Shown one piece after another: positions 23,208-56,262 of a DNA stretch of 64,000 nucleotides. The stretch is from Mycoplasmatota bacterium (lineage in GTDB: Bacteria > Bacillota_I > Bacilli_A > Haloplasmatales > Haloplasmataceae), in assembly GCA_018394295.1 (NCBI GenBank), contig CP074573.1, forward strand, positions 806,001 through 870,000. Reading direction: 5' to 3'. A program made the translations under genes and the position numbers. Below the pieces are notes generated by a model. It was not told the DNA's origin and made no database searches. It was given only the letters and a program-made list of their open reading frames with translations. Positions within the stretch are counted from its first letter, which is position 1. Each line of letters opens with the position of its first letter.

Positions 23208-23224
23208 AGATACGTACAATTTAA

Positions 23225-23313
23225 TATTCTGGGGAGCTATAAAGCTGAGAGGTTATTGAGTTAACGACCCGTTGAACCTGTCTAGATAATGCTAGCGTAG
23301 GGAATACATGTGT
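23225..23313 (+). ncRNA. TPP riboswitch (THI element)
   Basis: The aptamer hallmarks occur in order: GGGGAGC (23231-23237), GCTGAGAG (23244-23251), GACCC then GAACCTG (23266-23280), and AATGCTAGCGTAGGGA ending in the P1 3' strand. It precedes a terminator hairpin and thiT, so thiamine pyrophosphate binding should shut off thiamine import. Confidence 0.96.
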
Positions 23314-23322
23314 GACTTTTTT

Positions 23323-29354: not shown

Positions 29355-29592
29355 GTAATGAAAGACGATGAATTGGAGTAGTAACAATTACTTTTCAACT
29401 AGAGACTGACTGGTTGGTGGAAAGTCAGGGAAAGAATTGCGAACTAGCCATGGAGTTATATATGCCAACGATTAAGTTCTAGTAGTGTATATCGTTTTAC
29501 TTGCGTTAAAAGTAATCGAGTGGTGAGATTTTCTCACAACTAGGGTGGTACCACGTTTATAAGCGTCCTTAGAATATAAGGGCGTTTTTTTA
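29355..29592 (+). ncRNA. T-box leader of leuS
   Basis: The 14-base T-box AGGGTGGTACCACG lies at 29542-29555, followed by a terminator stem CGTCCTTA / TAAGGGCG (one G-U pair) and T7 (29564-29591). The long stem I region begins near 29357. GAACTAGCC at 29441-29449 may hold the specifier CTA (Leu) at 29444-29446; that codon call is tentative. Uncharged tRNA-Leu should stabilise the antiterminator and allow leuS expression. Confidence 0.94.
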
Positions 29593-29617: not shown

Positions 29618-32056
29618 ATGACTTATCATCATAAAAAAGTCGAGAAGAAATGGCAAGATTATTGGATTAATAACAAAACATTCAAAACCAGAGATGATGC
29701 AGAAAAAGAAAAATTTTATTGCTTAGATATGTTTCCATATCCATCAGGAGCAGGGCTACATGTAGGCCATCCTGAAGGATATACAGCAACTGATATTGTG
29801 TCACGCATGAAAAGAATGCAAGGATATAATGTTTTACATCCTATGGGGTGGGATGCATTTGGCTTACCAGCTGAACAATATGCGATAAAGACAGGAAATG
29901 ATCCAAGAGAATTTACGACGCAAAATACTGACAATTTTCGTCGTCAAATTCAATCATTAGGATTAAGTTATGATTGGGATAAAGAGTTAAATACGACGGA
30001 TCCTCAATTTTTTAAAACAACACAGTATATTTTCACTTTACTTTTTAAAAAAGGATTAGCAGAAATTAGAGAAGAGAATGTCAATTGGTGTGAAGAATTA
30101 GGAACCGTATTAGCTAATGAAGAAGTATTAAATGATAATGGCATTATGGTATCTGAAGTTGGTGGATTCCCTGTTGTGAAACGTCCAATGAAACAATGGG
30201 TGTTAAAAATAACTAAATATGCTGATCGTTTGCTAGAAGATTTAGATACATTAGATTGGCCTAATGGACTTAAAGAAATGCAGCGTAATTGGATTGGAAA
30301 AAGCGTTGGAGCTAAAATCCTCTTTAAGGTAAATAATTATGATTTAGATATCGAAGTTTTTACAACAAGAGCAGATACTCTATTTGGGGCATCTTATGTT
30401 GTCTTATCGCCAGAACATCCATTTGTAAAAGAGATTACAACAGATGAAAATAAGTTAGCTGTAGAAGAATATATTGCTACTTCAAAAGCAAAAACTGAGT
30501 TAGAAAGAACCGAATTGAATAAAGAAAAAACGGGTGTATTCACTGGTGGTTATGCAATTCATCCCGTTACGAAAGAATTACTTCCAATATGGATTGGTGA
30601 TTATGTGCTTATTAGTTATGGAACAGGTGCAGTTATGGCAGTACCTGGACATGATGAAAGAGATTATGAATTTGCTAAAAAATACGATTTACCAATTATT
30701 CAAGTCGTAAAAGGTGATATATCAAAAAAAGCATACACAGGTGATGATGAACACATTAATTCTTCATTCCTTAATGGTTTACATAATGAAGAAGCAATCG
30801 CTAAAATGATTGAGTATTTAGAAGAACATAACTTAGGTGCAAAAAAGATCAATTATAAATTAAGAGATTGGTTGTTTAGTCGTCAACGTTATTGGGGAGA
30901 ACCATTCCCAGTGATTCATTGGGAAGATGGAACCATAACCGTGTTAGATGAAAGTGAATTACCACTTGCTTTACCTGAAGTAAGTAACTTTAAACCTTCA
31001 AATACAGGTGAGAGTCCACTTGCTAAAGCAACTGATTGGTTAGATGTCGTAAGAGAAGATGGCGTTAAAGGCCGACGAGAAACCAATACAATGCCACAGT
31101 GGGCAGGAAGTTGTTGGTATTATATAGGATATATTTTAAATCAAGGGGATGGAAGTTTCCTTCCATTAGCTAGTGAAGAAGCGAAAAAACGCCTAGAAAA
31201 ATGGTTGCCAGTTGATCTATATGTAGGTGGAGCTGAGCATGCTGTTGGTCATTTGCTTTATGCAAGATTTTGGCATAAAGTGTTATATGATTGTGGACTT
31301 CTTCATAATAAAGAACCATTCCAAAAGCTATTTAATCAAGGGATGATTTTAGGTGAAAACAATGAGAAGATGAGCAAATCAAGAGGAAATGTGATTAACC
31401 CTGATGATATCGTTCTATCTCATGGAGCAGATAGTTTACGCATTTACGAAATGTTTATGGGTCCACTCGATGCTAGTAAACCATGGAGTACAACAGGTCT
31501 TGATGGAGCAAGACGTTTCTTAGAAAGAGTATGGCGTTTATTTGTGACAGAAGAAAATACTCAATCAAGTCATATCATTGATAAAGAAAATGATAAGTTA
31601 ACGCGAATTTACCATCAAACCGTAAAAAAAGTTACTGAAGATTATGAAACTCTAAACTTTAATACAGCAATATCTCAAATGATGATTTTTGTGAATGAGG
31701 CGTATAAAGCTGAATATATGCCACGTGAATATGCTTTAGGATTTATAAAACTATTGAATCCAATTGCACCACATATTACAGAAGAAATTTGGTCAATATT
31801 AGGTAATCATGACACAATCAGTTATGAAGCATGGCCAACTTATGATGAAACAAAATTGGTTGCAGAAACGATTGAAATCGCGGTTCAAATTAATGGAAAA
31901 TTAAGAGATAGAATTCATGTAACACCTGATACTATAGAAGAAGAGGTAAAAGCCTTAGCTTTAAGTCAAGAAAATGTGATAAGACATACAGAAAATAAAC
32001 AAATTCGTAAAGTCATTTATGTTAAAAATAAAATCGTCAATATTGTAGTAAGTTAG
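29618..32056 (+). CDS. leuS: Leucyl-tRNA synthetase
   Basis: This 812-residue class Ia synthetase has the HIGH-equivalent [12 protein letters not shown] (~46-57), [13 protein letters not shown], the CP1 editing insertion ([34 protein letters not shown]), WAGSCWYY, and the KMSKS loop [20 protein letters not shown]-terminal anticodon and tail domain closes the protein. AGGAGG (29604-29609) precedes the ATG. It is a single gene controlled by the upstream T-box. Confidence 0.97.
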
Positions 32057-32103: not shown

Positions 32104-33591
32104 CTACATATTGGCAATACTATAAATGTATTGTTCCTGATATTTATCTTGAAGATAATTTTCGACAATATCAATATCATTATGTTCAATAATATAACCA
32201 TTAAAAATTTCATATTTTTCATTTCCTTTTCCAGTGATAACAACAATATCATCGTGTGTGGCCATTTCTAACGCTTTTATGATTGCTTTTTTACGATTAG
32301 GAATAACACTAACTTTAAACACATTCTTAATTCCTTTAGTTATATCGGAAATGATGTCAAGTGTATCTTCGCTTTTTGGATCTTCACTTGTCAAAATAAT
32401 ATTTGAAGCATAAGCATCAACGACTTTACCCATTAATGGGCGTTTTGATTGATCTCGTTCACCTGCACTTCCAAAAACTACCGTTAAGTTTTTACCCTTT
32501 ACTTGACTAATATTAGACAGCAAACTGTTTAAAGCATTTGGTGTATGTGCAAAATCAATTATGACAGGAAATGGTTGTCCACAATTGACAATATGCATTC
32601 TACCATCAATTTCTTGAAGCGACTGAAGTTTTGGTATCATATTATCAAGAGAAAATCCTAAGGCATGGCAGGTTGCTAAAGCAGCGGTTACATTATATAC
32701 ATTATAATCACCAAAAAGGTTTAAACGTATATTTTTGTAAATTTCATCCTTTAGGATTAAATCAAATGTTGTTTCTTTAAAAGTTGTTTTGGTATGACTA
32801 ATACGAAAGTCACTATCAACATGTTTACCATAAGTAAGGACCTTTGCTTTTGTTTCAGTCATAATTTTAGAGGCATATGGCTCACTATCTAAATTAACCA
32901 CAGCATAACTTTCTTCACTAAGCATTTGAAATAATTTTAATTTTGATAGAAAATAATTTTCAATGGTTTTATGATAGTCAAGATGTTCGTGTGTTAAGTT
33001 GGTAAAAACCGCAACTTTAAATTTAAGGTAATCAACACGATGTAGATCTAAACCCTGACTTGAAACTTCAAGAGTTGCATAAGGTATTTTTTTCTTAAGG
33101 ACTTCAGATAAAAATTGTTGAAGTATATTTGGTTTAGGAGTCGTTAATGAATTTTTTAATTGGATTTGTTGAAACATAAATCCATTTGTGCCAATATAAG
33201 CGCAAGATTTAAAGTTATCAATTAATTGTTTAATAATAAGCGCGGTCGTTGTTTTTCCATCTGTCCCAGTTATTCCTATTAAATCTAAGTGATGGGTTGG
33301 ATTTTCAAAAAAATTAGCACAAATTAAAGGTAATACGCTTAAAGTATCAGAAACAATCACATAAGGAATATCAGTTTTAATCTGTTTATTCGCTATTATT
33401 AATATAGGTTTGATAGTAAATGTATGTAGGAGTTCATGACTATCAAACTTATTCCCTTTTATGCAAATAAAGCAAGAATGTTCTTTTACATCAAATGTAT
33501 TTTCTGTTAAGTATTCTATGTTTATAAAATCATGGTAATTATCACTTCGATATAATATTTCTACATTTCTTAATACATCCTTACTAAGCAC
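32104..33591 (-). CDS. murE: UDP-MurNAc-tripeptide synthetase (MurE)
   Basis: This 495-residue Mur ligase adds the third stem-peptide residue in peptidoglycan synthesis. LIGITGTDGKTTTALIIK is the ATP loop, TPKPNILQQF and EVSSQGLDLHRVDYLKF are the UDP-sugar and Mg2+ regions, FTNLTHEHLDYHKTIENYF follows, and VFGSAGERDQSKRPLMG starts the C-terminal domain. The selectivity motif that is DNPR in meso-DAP enzymes reads EDPK (LTSEDPKSED), so the amino acid added is uncertain. GTG 33591 is chosen because GGAGGGAG sits just upstream; an in-frame ATG at 33624 precedes that site. Confidence 0.9.
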   Translation of the reverse strand: MLSKDVLRNVEILYRSDNYHDFINIEYLTENTFDVKEHSCFICIKGNKFDSHELLHTFTIKPILIIANKQIKTDIPYVIVSDTLSVLPLICANFFENPTHHLDLIGITGTDGKTTTALIIKQLIDNFKSCAYIGTNGFMFQQIQLKNSLTTPKPNILQQFLSEVLKKKIPYATLEVSSQGLDLHRVDYLKFKVAVFTNLTHEHLDYHKTIENYFLSKLKLFQMLSEESYAVVNLDSEPYASKIMTETKAKVLTYGKHVDSDFRISHTKTTFKETTFDLILKDEIYKNIRLNLFGDYNVYNVTAALATCHALGFSLDNMIPKLQSLQEIDGRMHIVNCGQPFPVIIDFAHTPNALNSLLSNISQVKGKNLTVVFGSAGERDQSKRPLMGKVVDAYASNIILTSEDPKSEDTLDIISDITKGIKNVFKVSVIPNRKKAIIKALEMATHDDIVVITGKGNEKYEIFNGYIIEHNDIDIVENYLQDKYQEQYIYSIANM

Positions 33592-33703
33592 TTTTCTCCC
33601 TCCATTACATTTTAAGTCATTCATTATTTATTATGTTGACTTCGTTTAAAATTAAAAGTAAGATGGAGAAAAATTAATTGTTAAATATTTTATATTTTGG
33701 AAA

Positions 33704-45645: not shown

Positions 45646-47509
45646 GTGTGCCAGGCATGTCTATTAACTAGGTGGTGAAAGTCCACTACACGGGAAGATG
45701 ACTAAAGTGTTAGCCAAGTACAAGGGCGCCTATTGCGAAGTAGGGTCTGAAGGAAGTAGGAGGCAAAATTTTGGCTCGAGGAACACGAATCACATCAGGC
45801 GGGTATTATGGATGAGTTTGCTTAACAAAACAAAGTCCGTAGTCATCAAAGCAATAATACACGTAAATGTGGCGAGTATATGAAATGAAAGTGAATAGAC
45901 TTACCCTGGGAGATCTCATGAACACGTCACGAGCGTGGTTGAAAAAGATTTATCGTGAGAAGTCAGCAGAGCCATAGTAGGGTCCAAACCGAAGGGCGAA
46001 ACAGTATGTTTAATTGTAAATGTAAATTATAAGACTATATGAACAGTAGAAAATCAGGATTACCTACCTAACTTCGATGGTATCGTAAGGAACCTAGGAG
46101 CCTTTAGGACAAACAGTATGGTCTTAACAATGAAAGGAGCAATTACTAATGGAAAATCTTCTAGAATTAATCTTAAGTAACTACAATTTAAATGAAGCCA
46201 TCGCTAGAGTAGTGAAGAATAAAGGTGCTGCTGGAATTGATGGGATGAATGTTGAACAAGGAAGATTACATTTTATGAAACATGGTGATGAAATTAAAAG
46301 AGCCATAAGAAATAGAAAGTATAAACCTAACCCCGTTAGGAGAGTAGAAATACCAAAACCTGATGGTGGGGTAAGACTACTAGGAATACCAACGGTTATA
46401 GATAGAATCATTCAACAAGCCATTAATCAAGTGCTATCACCAATATTTGAGAAACAATTTAGTGACTCTAGTTTTGGATTTAGACCAAATCGAGGTTGTC
46501 ATATGGCAATTGAGAGAAGTTTAATGTATTTAAATGATGGTTACAAAGTAATAGTTGATACGGATTTAGAGAAATTCTTTGATAAGGTTAACCATGATAA
46601 ACTCATGCAAATATTATCTTTAACAATTAAAGATAGTGATTTAATGAGTTTGATAAGGAAATATCTAGTTAGTGGTATCATGATAAATGGAGTCGTAATA
46701 GATAGTGAGGAAGGAACACCACAAGGAGGACCATTAAGTCCATTATTATCAAATATCATGCTTAATGAACTAGATAAAGAGTTAACTAAAAGAGGATTAA
46801 GATTTGTACGATATGCCGATGACTGTAATATATATGTAAAAAGTATACGTGCAGGACAAAGAGTAATGGAGAGTATAACTAACTTTATTGAAAAGAAGTT
46901 AAAACTCAAAGTTAATCAGAGTAAAAGCAAAGTAGATTACTATAATAAAGGAATCAAATTTTTAGGCTTTGGCTTTTACTACAATCCCAGGCACAGACAA
47001 GTTAGAATCAAAGTACATCCAAAATCAATTAAAAGAATAAAAGAAAAGATTAAGAAATTAACATCTAGAAGATGGAGTATCAGTTTAGATTATCGGTTAC
47101 TCAAAATAAAACAACTTATAACAGGTTGGGTTAATTATTATAAAGTAGCCGATATGAAATGGTTATTGATGAAATTAGATGAACAAATAAGATTTCGTGT
47201 AAGAATGTGTATTTGGAAAGCATGGAAAAAGATTGGGAAACGATTTAAATCCCTAAGGAAACTAGGCGCAAGTCGTCAAAAGGCTTGGGAATACGCAAAC
47301 AGTAGAAAAAGCTATGCGCGAATCGCACATAGCTTTATCTTAACAACTACGATTACAAATAAAAGATTAGAACATCGTGGTCTAATATCAATGACCGAAT
47401 ATTATTTATCTGTTAGATAACATATTGAACCGCCGTATACCGAACGGTACGTACGGTGGTGTGAGAGGTCTGAAATGAATAGAAAACTATTTATTTCTTC
47501 CTACTCGAT
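45646..47509 (+). mobile_element. Group IIC (bacterial class C) intron
   Basis: The 5' end is GTGTG at 45646, matching the group II GUGYG consensus. About 500 bases of ribozyme (domains I-IV) precede the RT ORF. Domain V is the GAACCGCCGTATACC... hairpin at about 47430-47470, with the class-typical GTACGTACGG strand. Domain VI follows, ending CTACTCGAT at 47509. Insertion directly after a terminator hairpin is the hallmark of class C introns. All parts look intact, so it may be active. Exact boundaries are read by eye. Confidence 0.92.
46149..47420 (+). CDS. ltrA: Group II intron reverse transcriptase/maturase
   Basis: This 423-residue intron-encoded protein has RT motifs KNKGAAGIDGMNV, RRVEIPKPDGGVRLLGIPTV, FGFRPNRGCHMAI, GTPQGGPLSPLLSNIMLNELD and the catalytic RYADD in FVRYADDCNIYV. 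A maturase domain (GWVNYYKVADMKWLL) follows. There is no HNH endonuclease at the C terminus, as expected for class C, which integrates at terminators using replication-fork primers. AAAGGAGCAATTACTA precedes the ATG. The frame is intact. Confidence 0.96.
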   Translation: MENLLELILSNYNLNEAIARVVKNKGAAGIDGMNVEQGRLHFMKHGDEIKRAIRNRKYKPNPVRRVEIPKPDGGVRLLGIPTVIDRIIQQAINQVLSPIFEKQFSDSSFGFRPNRGCHMAIERSLMYLNDGYKVIVDTDLEKFFDKVNHDKLMQILSLTIKDSDLMSLIRKYLVSGIMINGVVIDSEEGTPQGGPLSPLLSNIMLNELDKELTKRGLRFVRYADDCNIYVKSIRAGQRVMESITNFIEKKLKLKVNQSKSKVDYYNKGIKFLGFGFYYNPRHRQVRIKVHPKSIKRIKEKIKKLTSRRWSISLDYRLLKIKQLITGWVNYYKVADMKWLLMKLDEQIRFRVRMCIWKAWKKIGKRFKSLRKLGASRQKAWEYANSRKSYARIAHSFILTTTITNKRLEHRGLISMTEYYLSVR

Positions 47510-52063: not shown

Positions 52064-52693
52064 TTGATAATAAATATTGTTGCAGGAGGTCCATTAGATA
52101 TTGATTTAGTTAAAGCTCATCCAGCTGACCTTACAATCGGTGTTGACTATGGAGCTTATCAACTGATAAATAATAATATGACATTAGATGTTGCTTTTGG
52201 TGATTTTGATTCAATTAATACCTATCAATTAGTTGAATTATTAAATACTTGTTCAAAAGTCAATAAATACAAGAAAGATAAAGATAATACAGATACAGAA
52301 TTAGCGTTTAGTTATGCATTAGAGTTAAAACCAGATGTAATTCAGCTGTTTGGTGTAACTGGTAAAAGAATTGATCATTTTTTAAGTGTACTTTATTTAT
52401 TTAAGAAAGTTTTAAGCTGTAATGTGAAACTTATTATTATTGATGAATATAATAAAATATATATTAAGAAACCAGGCGTTCATCACATTAAAAAATCAGA
52501 ATATCACTATTTATCTTTCTTTGCTTATCAAGATGAAGTAGTAAATCTAACGCTAACAAATTTTAAATATAAATTAGATAATTACTTATTAAAAAATCAG
52601 GATTCACTATGTATAAGCAATGAATTAATTAGTGATGTGGGAATTGTATCTTTTGATAAGGGAATTTTATTAATTGTCGAAAGTCGTGATTAA
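52064..52693 (+). CDS. thiN: Thiamine pyrophosphokinase
   Basis: This 209-residue enzyme makes TPP from thiamine and ATP. Motifs: VAGGPLDIDLVK, TIGVDYGAYQLI, VAFGDFDSIN, KDKDNTDTELAFSYAL (Mg2+ acidic cluster) and IQLFGVTGKRIDHFL, plus a C-terminal thiamine-binding beta domain. TTG 52064 is the start; AAGGGG lies upstream and an ATG three codons earlier is closed by a stop. It works with thiT (23398) in thiamine salvage. Confidence 0.93.
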   Translation: MIINIVAGGPLDIDLVKAHPADLTIGVDYGAYQLINNNMTLDVAFGDFDSINTYQLVELLNTCSKVNKYKKDKDNTDTELAFSYALELKPDVIQLFGVTGKRIDHFLSVLYLFKKVLSCNVKLIIIDEYNKIYIKKPGVHHIKKSEYHYLSFFAYQDEVVNLTLTNFKYKLDNYLLKNQDSLCISNELISDVGIVSFDKGILLIVESRD

Positions 52694-52759
52694 ATTATCA
52701 TAACTTTGTGGTATTTATCATAAGATATACTACAGAGTTTATCTAAGGGGGTAATGATT

Positions 52760-52843
52760 TTGAAGTTTTATATCATTAAATTACCAAAATTTTTATCTGT
52801 AATCGTGACTAGTATTTTACGTTTATTTAAACGTGATAAATAA
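52760..52843 (+). CDS. spoVM: Stage V sporulation protein M (SpoVM)
   Basis: This 27-residue amphipathic peptide begins MKFYIIKLPKFLSVIV and ends in the basic LFKRDK. It matches B. subtilis SpoVM (26 residues, MKFYTIKLPKF...), including Pro9, which is needed for sensing the convex forespore membrane and anchoring SpoIVA during coat assembly. AAGGGGG (52745-52751) is 8 bases from TTG 52760; the in-frame ATG at 52754 is too close to it. Its place between thiN and rpmB is exactly the Bacillus position. A terminator follows at once. Confidence 0.9.
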   Translation: MKFYIIKLPKFLSVIVTSILRLFKRDK

Positions 52844-52850
52844 AAAAATC

Positions 52851-52878
52851 GCTCCAATCAAAAAATTGGAGCATTTTT
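52851..52878 (+). terminator. Terminator after spoVM
   Basis: Stem GCTCCAAT / ATTGGAGC with loop CAAAAA, then T7, seven bases after the spoVM stop. Confidence 0.92.
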
Positions 52879-53100: not shown

Positions 53101-53772
53101 ATGAAAATATGTTATAAAAATATCGGGATTATCCTCATTCATGGTTTAGGTGGTGGTCTTAGTGATGTTGAACCTTTATCTAAGAAATTAAAGATGTTAG
53201 GTTATACAGTAGAAACACCACTTCTAAGAGGGCACACAGGTATAAAAGAGGATATGAAAAAAGTAACTTATCAAGATTGGATTAATGATGTTGAAAATGC
53301 TTATTTATCGCTTAAAGATAAATGTCAAGAAATCGTTTTAATCGGATATTCAATGGGAGGCTTATTATCTTTACAGGTTGCGAATAAGTTTAGAGTAAAA
53401 GGTCTTATTACGTTAAATACATCAATGTTTTTAGGGAATTTCTTTAATTTTTCTAAAAGATTTATTAAAGACTTAATTCAATTTAATATTTATCATATCA
53501 AGATGTTATACACTTCAATCAGAAAATTATCACTAAAAGCGCATCTTAATCTTAAACGATTATCAAAGGAGACAAAGAAAATAATACCAAATATAAATTG
53601 TGAAATTTTAGTAAGTCAATCAGTTAGTGATGAAGTGCTACAATATAAAAGCGTTAATTATTTACATAAGAATGTACCATGTAAAATAAAAAAAATACTG
53701 TTTTATAATAAAAATGAAGTGATTGAAGATGTAATTGTTGATACAGTAAAGTACATCGAAATTTGTTCATAA
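53101..53772 (+). CDS. Alpha/beta hydrolase-fold protein (Est-like), catalytic His not evident
   Basis: This 223-residue protein resembles small carboxylesterases: oxyanion region ILIHGLGGGLSDVEPL, PLLRGHTG and nucleophile elbow GYSMGGLLS with Ser near residue 84. A probable Asp lies in SQSVSDEVL. The segment where relatives carry the catalytic histidine (SGHVI-like, near the C terminus) reads YNKNEVIED, with no His. The enzyme may be inactive or use a different residue. TAGTGGTGATACT precedes the ATG. It converges on rpmB and interrupts the spoVM-rpmB adjacency of Bacillus. Confidence 0.75.
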   Translation: MKICYKNIGIILIHGLGGGLSDVEPLSKKLKMLGYTVETPLLRGHTGIKEDMKKVTYQDWINDVENAYLSLKDKCQEIVLIGYSMGGLLSLQVANKFRVKGLITLNTSMFLGNFFNFSKRFIKDLIQFNIYHIKMLYTSIRKLSLKAHLNLKRLSKETKKIIPNINCEILVSQSVSDEVLQYKSVNYLHKNVPCKIKKILFYNKNEVIEDVIVDTVKYIEICS

Positions 53773-53823: not shown

Positions 53824-54012
53824 CTATACTCGTTCTACTTTACCTGATTTTAAAGCACGAGCCGACACATATACTTTTTTTGGTTTTCCATCTACTAAGA
53901 TTCGAACTTTATGTAAATTAGCTTTCCATGTTCTTTTTGTAGAGTTTAAAGCGTGAGAACGTTTATTTCCACTAGTGGTACGACGTCCTGTAACGAAACA
54001 TACACGAGCCAT
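53824..54012 (-). CDS. rpmB: 50S ribosomal protein L28
   Basis: This 62-residue ribosomal protein starts [29 protein letters not shown] and ends [13 protein letters not shown], a full-length L28. ATG 54012 follows AGGAGGTTGTTCT on the minus strand; a longer frame to 54066 lacks support. It is divergent from yloU, as in B. subtilis. A single cysteine (CF) rather than the zinc-type CxxC pair is present. Confidence 0.96.
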
Positions 54013-54145
54013 AGAACAACCTCCTTCATAGGTATTATATCTCATTTGACTATATAAATTTATCATAATTCTAACATTTTTTCAAGTTTTTTTAACATAA
54101 TATAAAAGAAAAGTGATAAAATGATAAAAGGATTGAATAAAATTG

Positions 54146-54231: not shown

Positions 54232-54597
54232 ATGAGTATACATATTGAAAGTGAATTTGGAAGAATTGATGTATCTACTGATGCAATTTCTCAAATCGCA
54301 GGCACAGCAGCTACACAGTGTTATGGAGTTGTTGGAATGGCGTCAAACAATCAGCTAAAAGATGGTTTGGCTGTTATTTTGCGTCGTGAAAATTTTGGAA
54401 AAGGTGTCGCTATTCGTAGCGAGAATGATTTAATAGACATTGATTTATTTGTAGTTTTAGGCTACGGTATTAAAATATCAGAGGTCTCTTTAGAAATTCA
54501 AAAGAAAGTTAGATATGATGTTGAACAATATTTTGGTAAAAAAGTTAGAAGTGTGAATGTTTTCGTACAGGGAGTACGCGTCATTGATGAAAAATAG
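54232..54597 (+). CDS. yloU: Asp23/YloU-family protein
   Basis: This 121-residue Asp23 (DUF322) protein reads GRIDVSTDAISQIAGTAATQCYGVVGMAS near the N terminus, IDIDLFVVLGYGIKISEVSLEIQKKVRYDVE in the middle and VNVFVQGVRVID at the end. Asp23-family proteins are linked to envelope stress and lipid metabolism but have no defined activity. It precedes fakA by 12 bases, a pairing kept across Bacillota. TTAGGAGG precedes the ATG. Confidence 0.93.
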   Translation: MSIHIESEFGRIDVSTDAISQIAGTAATQCYGVVGMASNNQLKDGLAVILRRENFGKGVAIRSENDLIDIDLFVVLGYGIKISEVSLEIQKKVRYDVEQYFGKKVRSVNVFVQGVRVIDEK

Positions 54598-54609: not shown

Positions 54610-56262
54610 ATGTCAACTTTTAAAATTGACGGCTCTCTATTCAAACAAATGATTATCAATGGAGCTGTTAATCTTGATAATAATTCTGATTATATAGATG
54701 AATTAAATGTTTTCCCTGTACCTGACGGGGATACTGGAACAAATATGAAACTTACATTAAATGCGGGCGCAAAAGAGATTGTCAATTTAAATTCAAATTC
54801 AATTGCAGAAGTTGCTAAAAAATTATCGCGTGGTTTATTAATGGGAGCACGTGGTAATTCTGGTGTTATTTTATCACAATTATTTAGAGGGTTTGCAAAT
54901 GGCGTAGAAGGTCATGATATTGCAGATACTGTTATATTCGCAAAAGCATTAAAAAAAGGCGTTGAGACTGCCTATAAAGCAGTCATGAAACCTGTTGAAG
55001 GAACCATTTTAACAGTTTCAAGAGAATCAGCAGATGAAGTTAATAGAATGGCTACTCCAGAAATGTCGTTTGAAGAACTTTTATCGAGATTAGTAAATGA
55101 AGCTAAACGTTCTTTAAAACGTACACCTGATTTATTACCAGTATTAAAAGAAGTTGGTGTTGTAGATTCAGGAGGAGCAGGTCTTTTGGTTATTTATGAA
55201 GGTTTTAAAAAAGCAATTAATGGAGAAATCCTAAAATTAGATGAAAATAAAGACAATAAAAATACCCAAAGTGCACAAGCACAATTTAATGTTGAAGATA
55301 TCACTTTTAGTTATTGTACAGAATTTATTGTACAATTAGATCAAGAAAAAACTAAAACAAATCCATTTACTGAACAAAGATTATCAAATTTCTTATTAAC
55401 TATAGGAGATTCTTTAGTTGTTGTTCAAGATGAGGATATTGTTAAAGTGCATGTTCATACAAATGAACCAGGGGTAGCTTTAAACTTTGCTCAAAAATAT
55501 GGTGAATTCTTAAAATTAAAAATAGAAAATATGAAAGAACAACATAGTACAATTGTATCTGAAGTAAATGATACAATGGAAGTTAAAAAAGAAGTTGAAA
55601 AAAAGGAATATGGTATTATAGCTGTATGTTCTGGAGAAGGGCTAGCTAATATCTTTAAAGAAATGGGATGTGACATCATTATATCTGGTGGACAAACCAT
55701 GAATCCTTCAACTGAAGACTTCTTAAAGGCAATTAAAGAAGTCAATGCAAAAAATGTGATTATCTTACCAAATAACAGTAATATTATTATGGCAGCAAAT
55801 CAAGCAGCAGATGTTACTGATGATGTTGATGTTAAAGTTATACCAACAAAAACAATTCCGCAAGGATATTCATCATTACTTATTTTTAATCCAACGGCAG
55901 ATTTAGAATCTAATTACGAAGTGATGGTTGAACAGATGAATGAAGTAAAATCTGGACAAGTAACCTATGCAGTTCGTGATACTCAGTATAATGGGATAGA
56001 AATACTTAAAGATGATTATATGGGAATTTTTGAAAAAAATATTGTTGTAAGTAGTCATGATCGATTAGATGTGACGCTTTCACTACTGAATCAAATGGTA
56101 GATGAAGATACTGAAATTGTAACTGTCTTCTACGGTGATGATGTAAGTGAAGATGAAGTAGAAAATATTAGTGAATTTATTGAGTCAAACTATAAAGATG
56201 TTGAATTAGAAATTTTAGAAGGTAATCAACCAGTTTACTCTTATATTATCGCTATTGAATAA
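54610..56262 (+). CDS. fakA: Fatty acid kinase FakA (DAK2 + DegV-like domains; YloV)
   Basis: This 550-residue kinase phosphorylates fatty acids presented by FakB (DegV-family) proteins, feeding exogenous acyl chains to phospholipid synthesis. The N-terminal DAK2 domain (~1-205) has the nucleotide motif NVFPVPDGDTGTNM and GLLMGARGNSGVILSQLFRGF. A middle domain (YCTEFIVQL, VVVQDEDIVKVHVHTNEPG) and a C-terminal DegV-like domain (IIPTKTIPQGYSSL) follow. A FakB gene lies 320 bases downstream. Confidence 0.94.
   Translation: MSTFKIDGSLFKQMIINGAVNLDNNSDYIDELNVFPVPDGDTGTNMKLTLNAGAKEIVNLNSNSIAEVAKKLSRGLLMGARGNSGVILSQLFRGFANGVEGHDIADTVIFAKALKKGVETAYKAVMKPVEGTILTVSRESADEVNRMATPEMSFEELLSRLVNEAKRSLKRTPDLLPVLKEVGVVDSGGAGLLVIYEGFKKAINGEILKLDENKDNKNTQSAQAQFNVEDITFSYCTEFIVQLDQEKTKTNPFTEQRLSNFLLTIGDSLVVVQDEDIVKVHVHTNEPGVALNFAQKYGEFLKLKIENMKEQHSTIVSEVNDTMEVKKEVEKKEYGIIAVCSGEGLANIFKEMGCDIIISGGQTMNPSTEDFLKAIKEVNAKNVIILPNNSNIIMAANQAADVTDDVDVKVIPTKTIPQGYSSLLIFNPTADLESNYEVMVEQMNEVKSGQVTYAVRDTQYNGIEILKDDYMGIFEKNIVVSSHDRLDVTLSLLNQMVDEDTEIVTVFYGDDVSEDEVENISEFIESNYKDVELEILEGNQPVYSYIIAIE

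Follow-up and report, generated by a model that had tools for sequence, protein, structure and literature searches.

A spoVM gene with a TTG start at a conserved locus in a Haloplasmataceae genome that carries most sporulation genes

Organization of the spoVM locus

The region analyzed, hereafter the window, is a stretch of 64,000 nucleotides of contig CP074573.1 (assembly GCA_018394295.1, positions 806,001 to 870,000, forward strand). The original prediction had placed a 27-codon spoVM gene with a TTG start at 52760-52843, and these coordinates proved exact, with curated SpoVM cut-offs passed by the product. The 84 bases open with TTG-AAG-TTT-TAT and close with TAA; translated with TTG as Met, they yield the product MKFYIIKLPKFLSVIVTSILRLFKRDK. 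The features of the locus are the following:

52064-52693, plus strand: thiN, thiamine diphosphokinase, the upstream neighbour (TIGR01378, 170 bits)
52698-52726, plus strand: putative SigE-like promoter, TCATAAC-N14-CATAAGAT, proposed from its conservation in the family
52745-52752, plus strand: Shine-Dalgarno sequence AAGGGGGT, read directly, with a G-rich site in all relatives
52760-52843, plus strand: spoVM, 27 codons plus TAA, TTG start, with profile matches and counterparts throughout the Haloplasmataceae genomes (8/8)
52851-52872, plus strand: intrinsic terminator, a stem after the stop codon (GCTCCAAT-loop-ATTGGAGC) followed by a T run
53101-53772, plus strand: alpha/beta hydrolase gene separating spoVM from rpmB, with homologues in part of the family
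53824-54066, minus strand: rpmB, ribosomal protein L28 (TIGR00009, 73.8 bits)
54232-54597, plus strand: yloU (Asp23-type), assigned by synteny and homology with two Bacillaceae loci
54610-56262, plus strand: yloV, DAK2-domain protein (TIGR03599, 698 bits)

The name yloU is the one established for this locus. The order rsgA-rpe-thiN-spoVM-rpmB-yloU is common to the window and to the two Bacillaceae loci, those of Weizmannia acidilactici (L019) and Heyndrickxia ginsengihumi (L020), in which thiN is likewise the upstream neighbour. The expected ancestral place of the gene, between thiN and the rpmB-yloU block, thus holds as far as gene order is concerned, but the alpha/beta hydrolase intervenes before rpmB. 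A homologue of this hydrolase was clear at the same place in four relatives (G001, G003, G004, and G005) and weak in G007, while none was found between spoVM and rpmB in G006 or G002.

Elsewhere in the window, a group II intron occupies positions 45698-47509 (plus strand); it contains a reverse transcriptase ORF (46149-47420), and matching RNA domains lie at either end. A T-box leader (29359-29573, plus strand) lies directly 5' of a leucyl-tRNA-synthetase-like ORF (29618-32056), and a TPP riboswitch is located at 23220-23320 (plus strand).

Family membership and conserved residues of the peptide

The window peptide scored 36.7 bits against the NCBIfam model SpoVM_broad (NF033436; cut-off 31) and 28.9 bits against the Pfam family SpoV (PF08183; cut-off 20.6), passing both, and fell below the cut-off of the narrower model NF011327 (36 bits versus 55). 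With only about 26 residues in the SpoVM family, and 27 in the window product, a short ORF might match a short profile by chance. We consider this reading refuted on the score contrast and on synteny: an HMM built from 13 relatives, with the window sequence left out, gave 50.8 bits (E 1.3e-14), against 8.1 bits for the second-best of 2,244 six-frame window segments and a maximum of 13.1 bits in ten random order-1 windows with the same base-step statistics, and the gene order agrees with that of Bacillaceae. The probability left to a chance match is negligible. Judged by its sequence, the window gene is an ordinary, genuine SpoVM and a member of the known family.

Comparison with B. subtilis SpoVM was made through the literature. 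There, curvature sensing depends on Pro9 and SpoIVA binding on Ile6, Lys2 and Ile15 are needed to form the cortex, and replacement of any of these four residues is damaging (PMC5607322); the P9A variant is also treated in PMC4307972. The window peptide keeps K2, I6, P9, and I15, and the start MKFYIIKLPKF with Pro9 is present as anticipated. In an eight-member alignment that includes Bacillaceae, M1, F3, Y4, I6, L8, P9, F11, and F23 are invariant. Residues 9-24 form a predicted amphipathic helix with a moment of 0.58 (p 0.01 against shuffles). The SpoVM peptides of W. acidilactici and H. ginsengihumi share 16 of 26 residues (62%) with the window peptide, as well as the N-terminus MKFYxIKLPKFL, Pro9, and the neighbourhood. 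The window gene differs from theirs in its TTG start, in the substitutions T5 to I and R17 to T (position 17 being Arg in both Bacillaceae copies), in a more basic C-terminus (LFKRDK), and in the one added gene before rpmB.

Start codon and expression signals

The G run of AAGGGGGT stops 8 nt before the TTG, as had been described for the ribosome site. An additional in-frame ATG is present at 52754-52756, two codons upstream of the TTG and 2 nt from the G run, and initiation there would produce a true SpoVM as a 29-residue peptide beginning MILKFYIIKLPKF. That ATG is a stronger start codon than TTG and recurs in G003, yet only 2 nt separate it from the G run, and the site reads ATC in G001 (same genus) and ATA in G004, both of which retain the TTG downstream. 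The codon aligned with the window TTG is a start codon in all seven relatives, namely TTG in three (G001, G003, and G004) and ATG in four (G002, G005, G006, and G007). Because a start codon is aligned at this position throughout and the upstream ATG is replaced in G001 and G004, TTG 52760 is likely the start, and initiation at 52754 appears very improbable.

Upstream of the gene, the pattern TCATA-N16-CATA is shared, with equal spacing, by 8/8 family genomes, although the sequence between its two halves has diverged; the core SigE-like pattern has six occurrences in 128 kb (the window, both strands). Measured against the whole B. subtilis SigE consensus, the window box matches at 11 of 15 positions, a common score that is not rare by itself. 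A SigE-type promoter had been named as something to look for upstream, and a conserved SigE-like box is present; since its consensus score does not stand out, it is from conservation that we infer a putative SigE control of spoVM. A terminator belonging to the gene itself had also been proposed, and the stem with its T run was found; comparable stems lie past the spoVM stop in G001, G003, G004, and G005.

Conservation in the Haloplasmataceae

SpoVM is usually missed by annotation, being so small. The view that the window gene is too short for gene callers finds support in a Pfam six-frame genome search, which recovered SpoVM in 7/7 family relatives and missed the window copy; for this reason, conservation was assessed by direct reading of the loci. 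So read, spoVM is present in all seven relatives sampled and therefore in each of the eight family genomes (G000-G007), and it is under purifying selection (pN 0.08-0.21 versus pS 0.26-0.80 against the seven relatives), which answers the question of whether the ORF is kept in close relatives. SpoVM peptides from Haloplasmataceae metagenome-assembled genomes (MAGs; L015, L016, and L017) and from G006 are 70-89% identical to that of the window, with the same promoter block and position; the start codon varies among the relatives between TTG and ATG.

The suggestion of a Mollicutes-related host agrees with the source genome, which belongs to the Haloplasmataceae, a family placed by the NCBI taxonomy in the phylum Mycoplasmatota and in its class Mollicutes, a wall-less and non-sporing group. 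The YloV protein of the window is 89% identical to that of MAG B5_bin.1 (labelled Haloplasma contractile; the contig of G001) and 79-81% identical to those of other Haloplasmataceae-type MAGs. G006, probably Haloplasma contractile, and the window genome represent different genera of one family.

Sporulation genes and the missing spoIIIA functions

The SpoIVA partner is encoded at full length (681.9 bits, cut-off 459.9), with an alignment that reaches the last profile position (492), and its C-terminus, GSGGLIAIIL, keeps a Gly where B. subtilis has Gly486, as counted back from the profile end; the gene adjoins hup and gpsA. The genome also encodes Spo0A, a SpoIIGA-SigE-SigG group, and SpoIIAA-SpoIIAB-SigF followed by spoVAC/AD/AE, together with YabQ, SpoVA (including SpoVAD), SpoIIR, and four small acid-soluble proteins (SASPs). 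SigE, SigG, and SigK score above their curated cut-offs. The SigF homologue of the spoIIA operon (L159:11082-11831, minus strand) is divergent, and at 156 bits versus a cut-off of 321 it was assigned by operon context. SpoIIGA is also divergent and under its curated cut-off, as is SpoIIE, which nevertheless aligned across its length. Each of the genes singled out for a search (spoIVA, sigE, sigF, spoIIE, and spo0A) was accordingly found, SigF and SpoIIE in divergent, sub-cut-off form; a lack of spoIVA or of sporulation sigma factors, and an unconserved ORF, had been named as grounds against the original prediction, and the genes and the conservation are both there. At the family level, 8/8 genomes encode SpoVM, SASPs, SpoVA, Spo0A, and a SpoIIE homologue, with four or more SASPs per genome, and SASP, SpoVA, and SpoIIR are retained across the Haloplasmataceae with a gap in one MAG. 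Field et al. 2024 (PMC10868615), in their gene trees, already treat the Haloplasmatales as bearers of sporulation genes, and no paper naming SpoVM together with Haloplasma was found in the literature searched.

In most spore formers, the spoIIIA genes count as part of the core set. SpoIIIAA, SpoIIIAC/AD, and SpoIIIAE were found in none of the eight Haloplasmataceae genomes, with a positive B. subtilis control, in searches that covered these components of the channel. In a related contrast family (f11, suspected Turicibacteraceae; G017 and G028), SpoIIIAE is kept in both members searched for it, SpoIIIAC/AD matches were obtained in 4/5 members searched, some just under the cut-off, and no convincing SpoIIIAA match was obtained in the members searched. 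The Erysipelotrichia resemble the Haloplasmataceae in having sporulation genes and no spoIIIA operon found, and several of their members sporulate (PMC3749518), so the absence of spoIIIA alone does not exclude sporulation. The two groups differ in that the Erysipelotrichia are reported to have essentially no SASPs (Field et al., PMC10868615), against at least four per genome in the Haloplasmataceae.

Regarding cell-wall genes, two MurE homologues are found per genome, one at window positions 32104-33624 (minus strand) and one beside murD (L165). G006 likewise has two (L172 and L174), unlike the statement that murEF are absent in H. contractile (PMC7301438). Four MurF-like proteins (L167, L168, L169, and L170) are encoded in the window's genome, three of them close together; all are under the curated MurF cut-off, with E below 1e-43.

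Proposed function and the question of sporulation

The best explanation of the locus, which we hold with high confidence, is a SpoVM orthologue vertically inherited in its ancestral place. The sequence, the start, the conservation, and the gene order are observed in these genomes, as are the SpoIVA partner and most of the sporulation cascade; the points that weigh against this explanation are the spoIIIA genes not found, the divergence of SigF, SpoIIGA, and SpoIIE, the 11/15 SigE box, and Thr17. The mechanism is most likely the known one, in which SpoVM would act as a curvature-sensing membrane anchor for SpoIVA. During sporulation, SigE would transcribe spoVM in the mother cell, the terminator limiting the transcript to spoVM alone, and the amphipathic helix of the 27-residue product would enter the positively curved outer forespore membrane by virtue of its Pro9 kink. 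Ile6 would then dock SpoIVA, whose polymer would form the basement layer of the coat and license cortex synthesis.

Because most of the spore-making program is encoded in the genome, the lineage likely makes, or recently made, spores. This part of the original prediction is supported as a well-founded inference. A true SpoVM could also persist in a lineage that no longer sporulates, as a relic within a gene set that is decaying or has been reused. The failure to find spoIIIAA, spoIIIAC/AD, and spoIIIAE in the eight family genomes would fit such a loss, as would the divergent SigF and SpoIIGA and the description of Haloplasma as wall-less in the literature (PMC7301438). Against it, spoVM is under purifying selection, with promoter and start conserved over eight genomes; the remaining sporulation genes read as intact, without stops; SASP, SpoVA, and SpoIIR are kept family-wide, apart from the one MAG gap; MurE, MurD, and MurF homologues are present; and the Erysipelotrichia sporulate without spoIIIA (PMC3749518). 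On this balance, we regard a relic SpoVM as unlikely. A fuller proposal, that the Haloplasmataceae are endospore formers with a SpoVM/SpoIVA coat and cortex, no SpoIIIA channel, and peptidoglycan genes serving mainly the spore, is put forward as a speculation of rather low probability.

Since annotation tends to overlook a protein of this size, each firm case of SpoVM is a useful marker. As a SpoVM orthologue in its ancestral place, the window gene shows that a family classed within the Mollicutes carries an intact, selected coat-assembly module in addition to a spore program. A prediction that can be tested is that relatives of Haloplasma form spores, and the Haloplasmataceae are a group with a nearly full spore program and no detectable spoIIIA among the genes searched.
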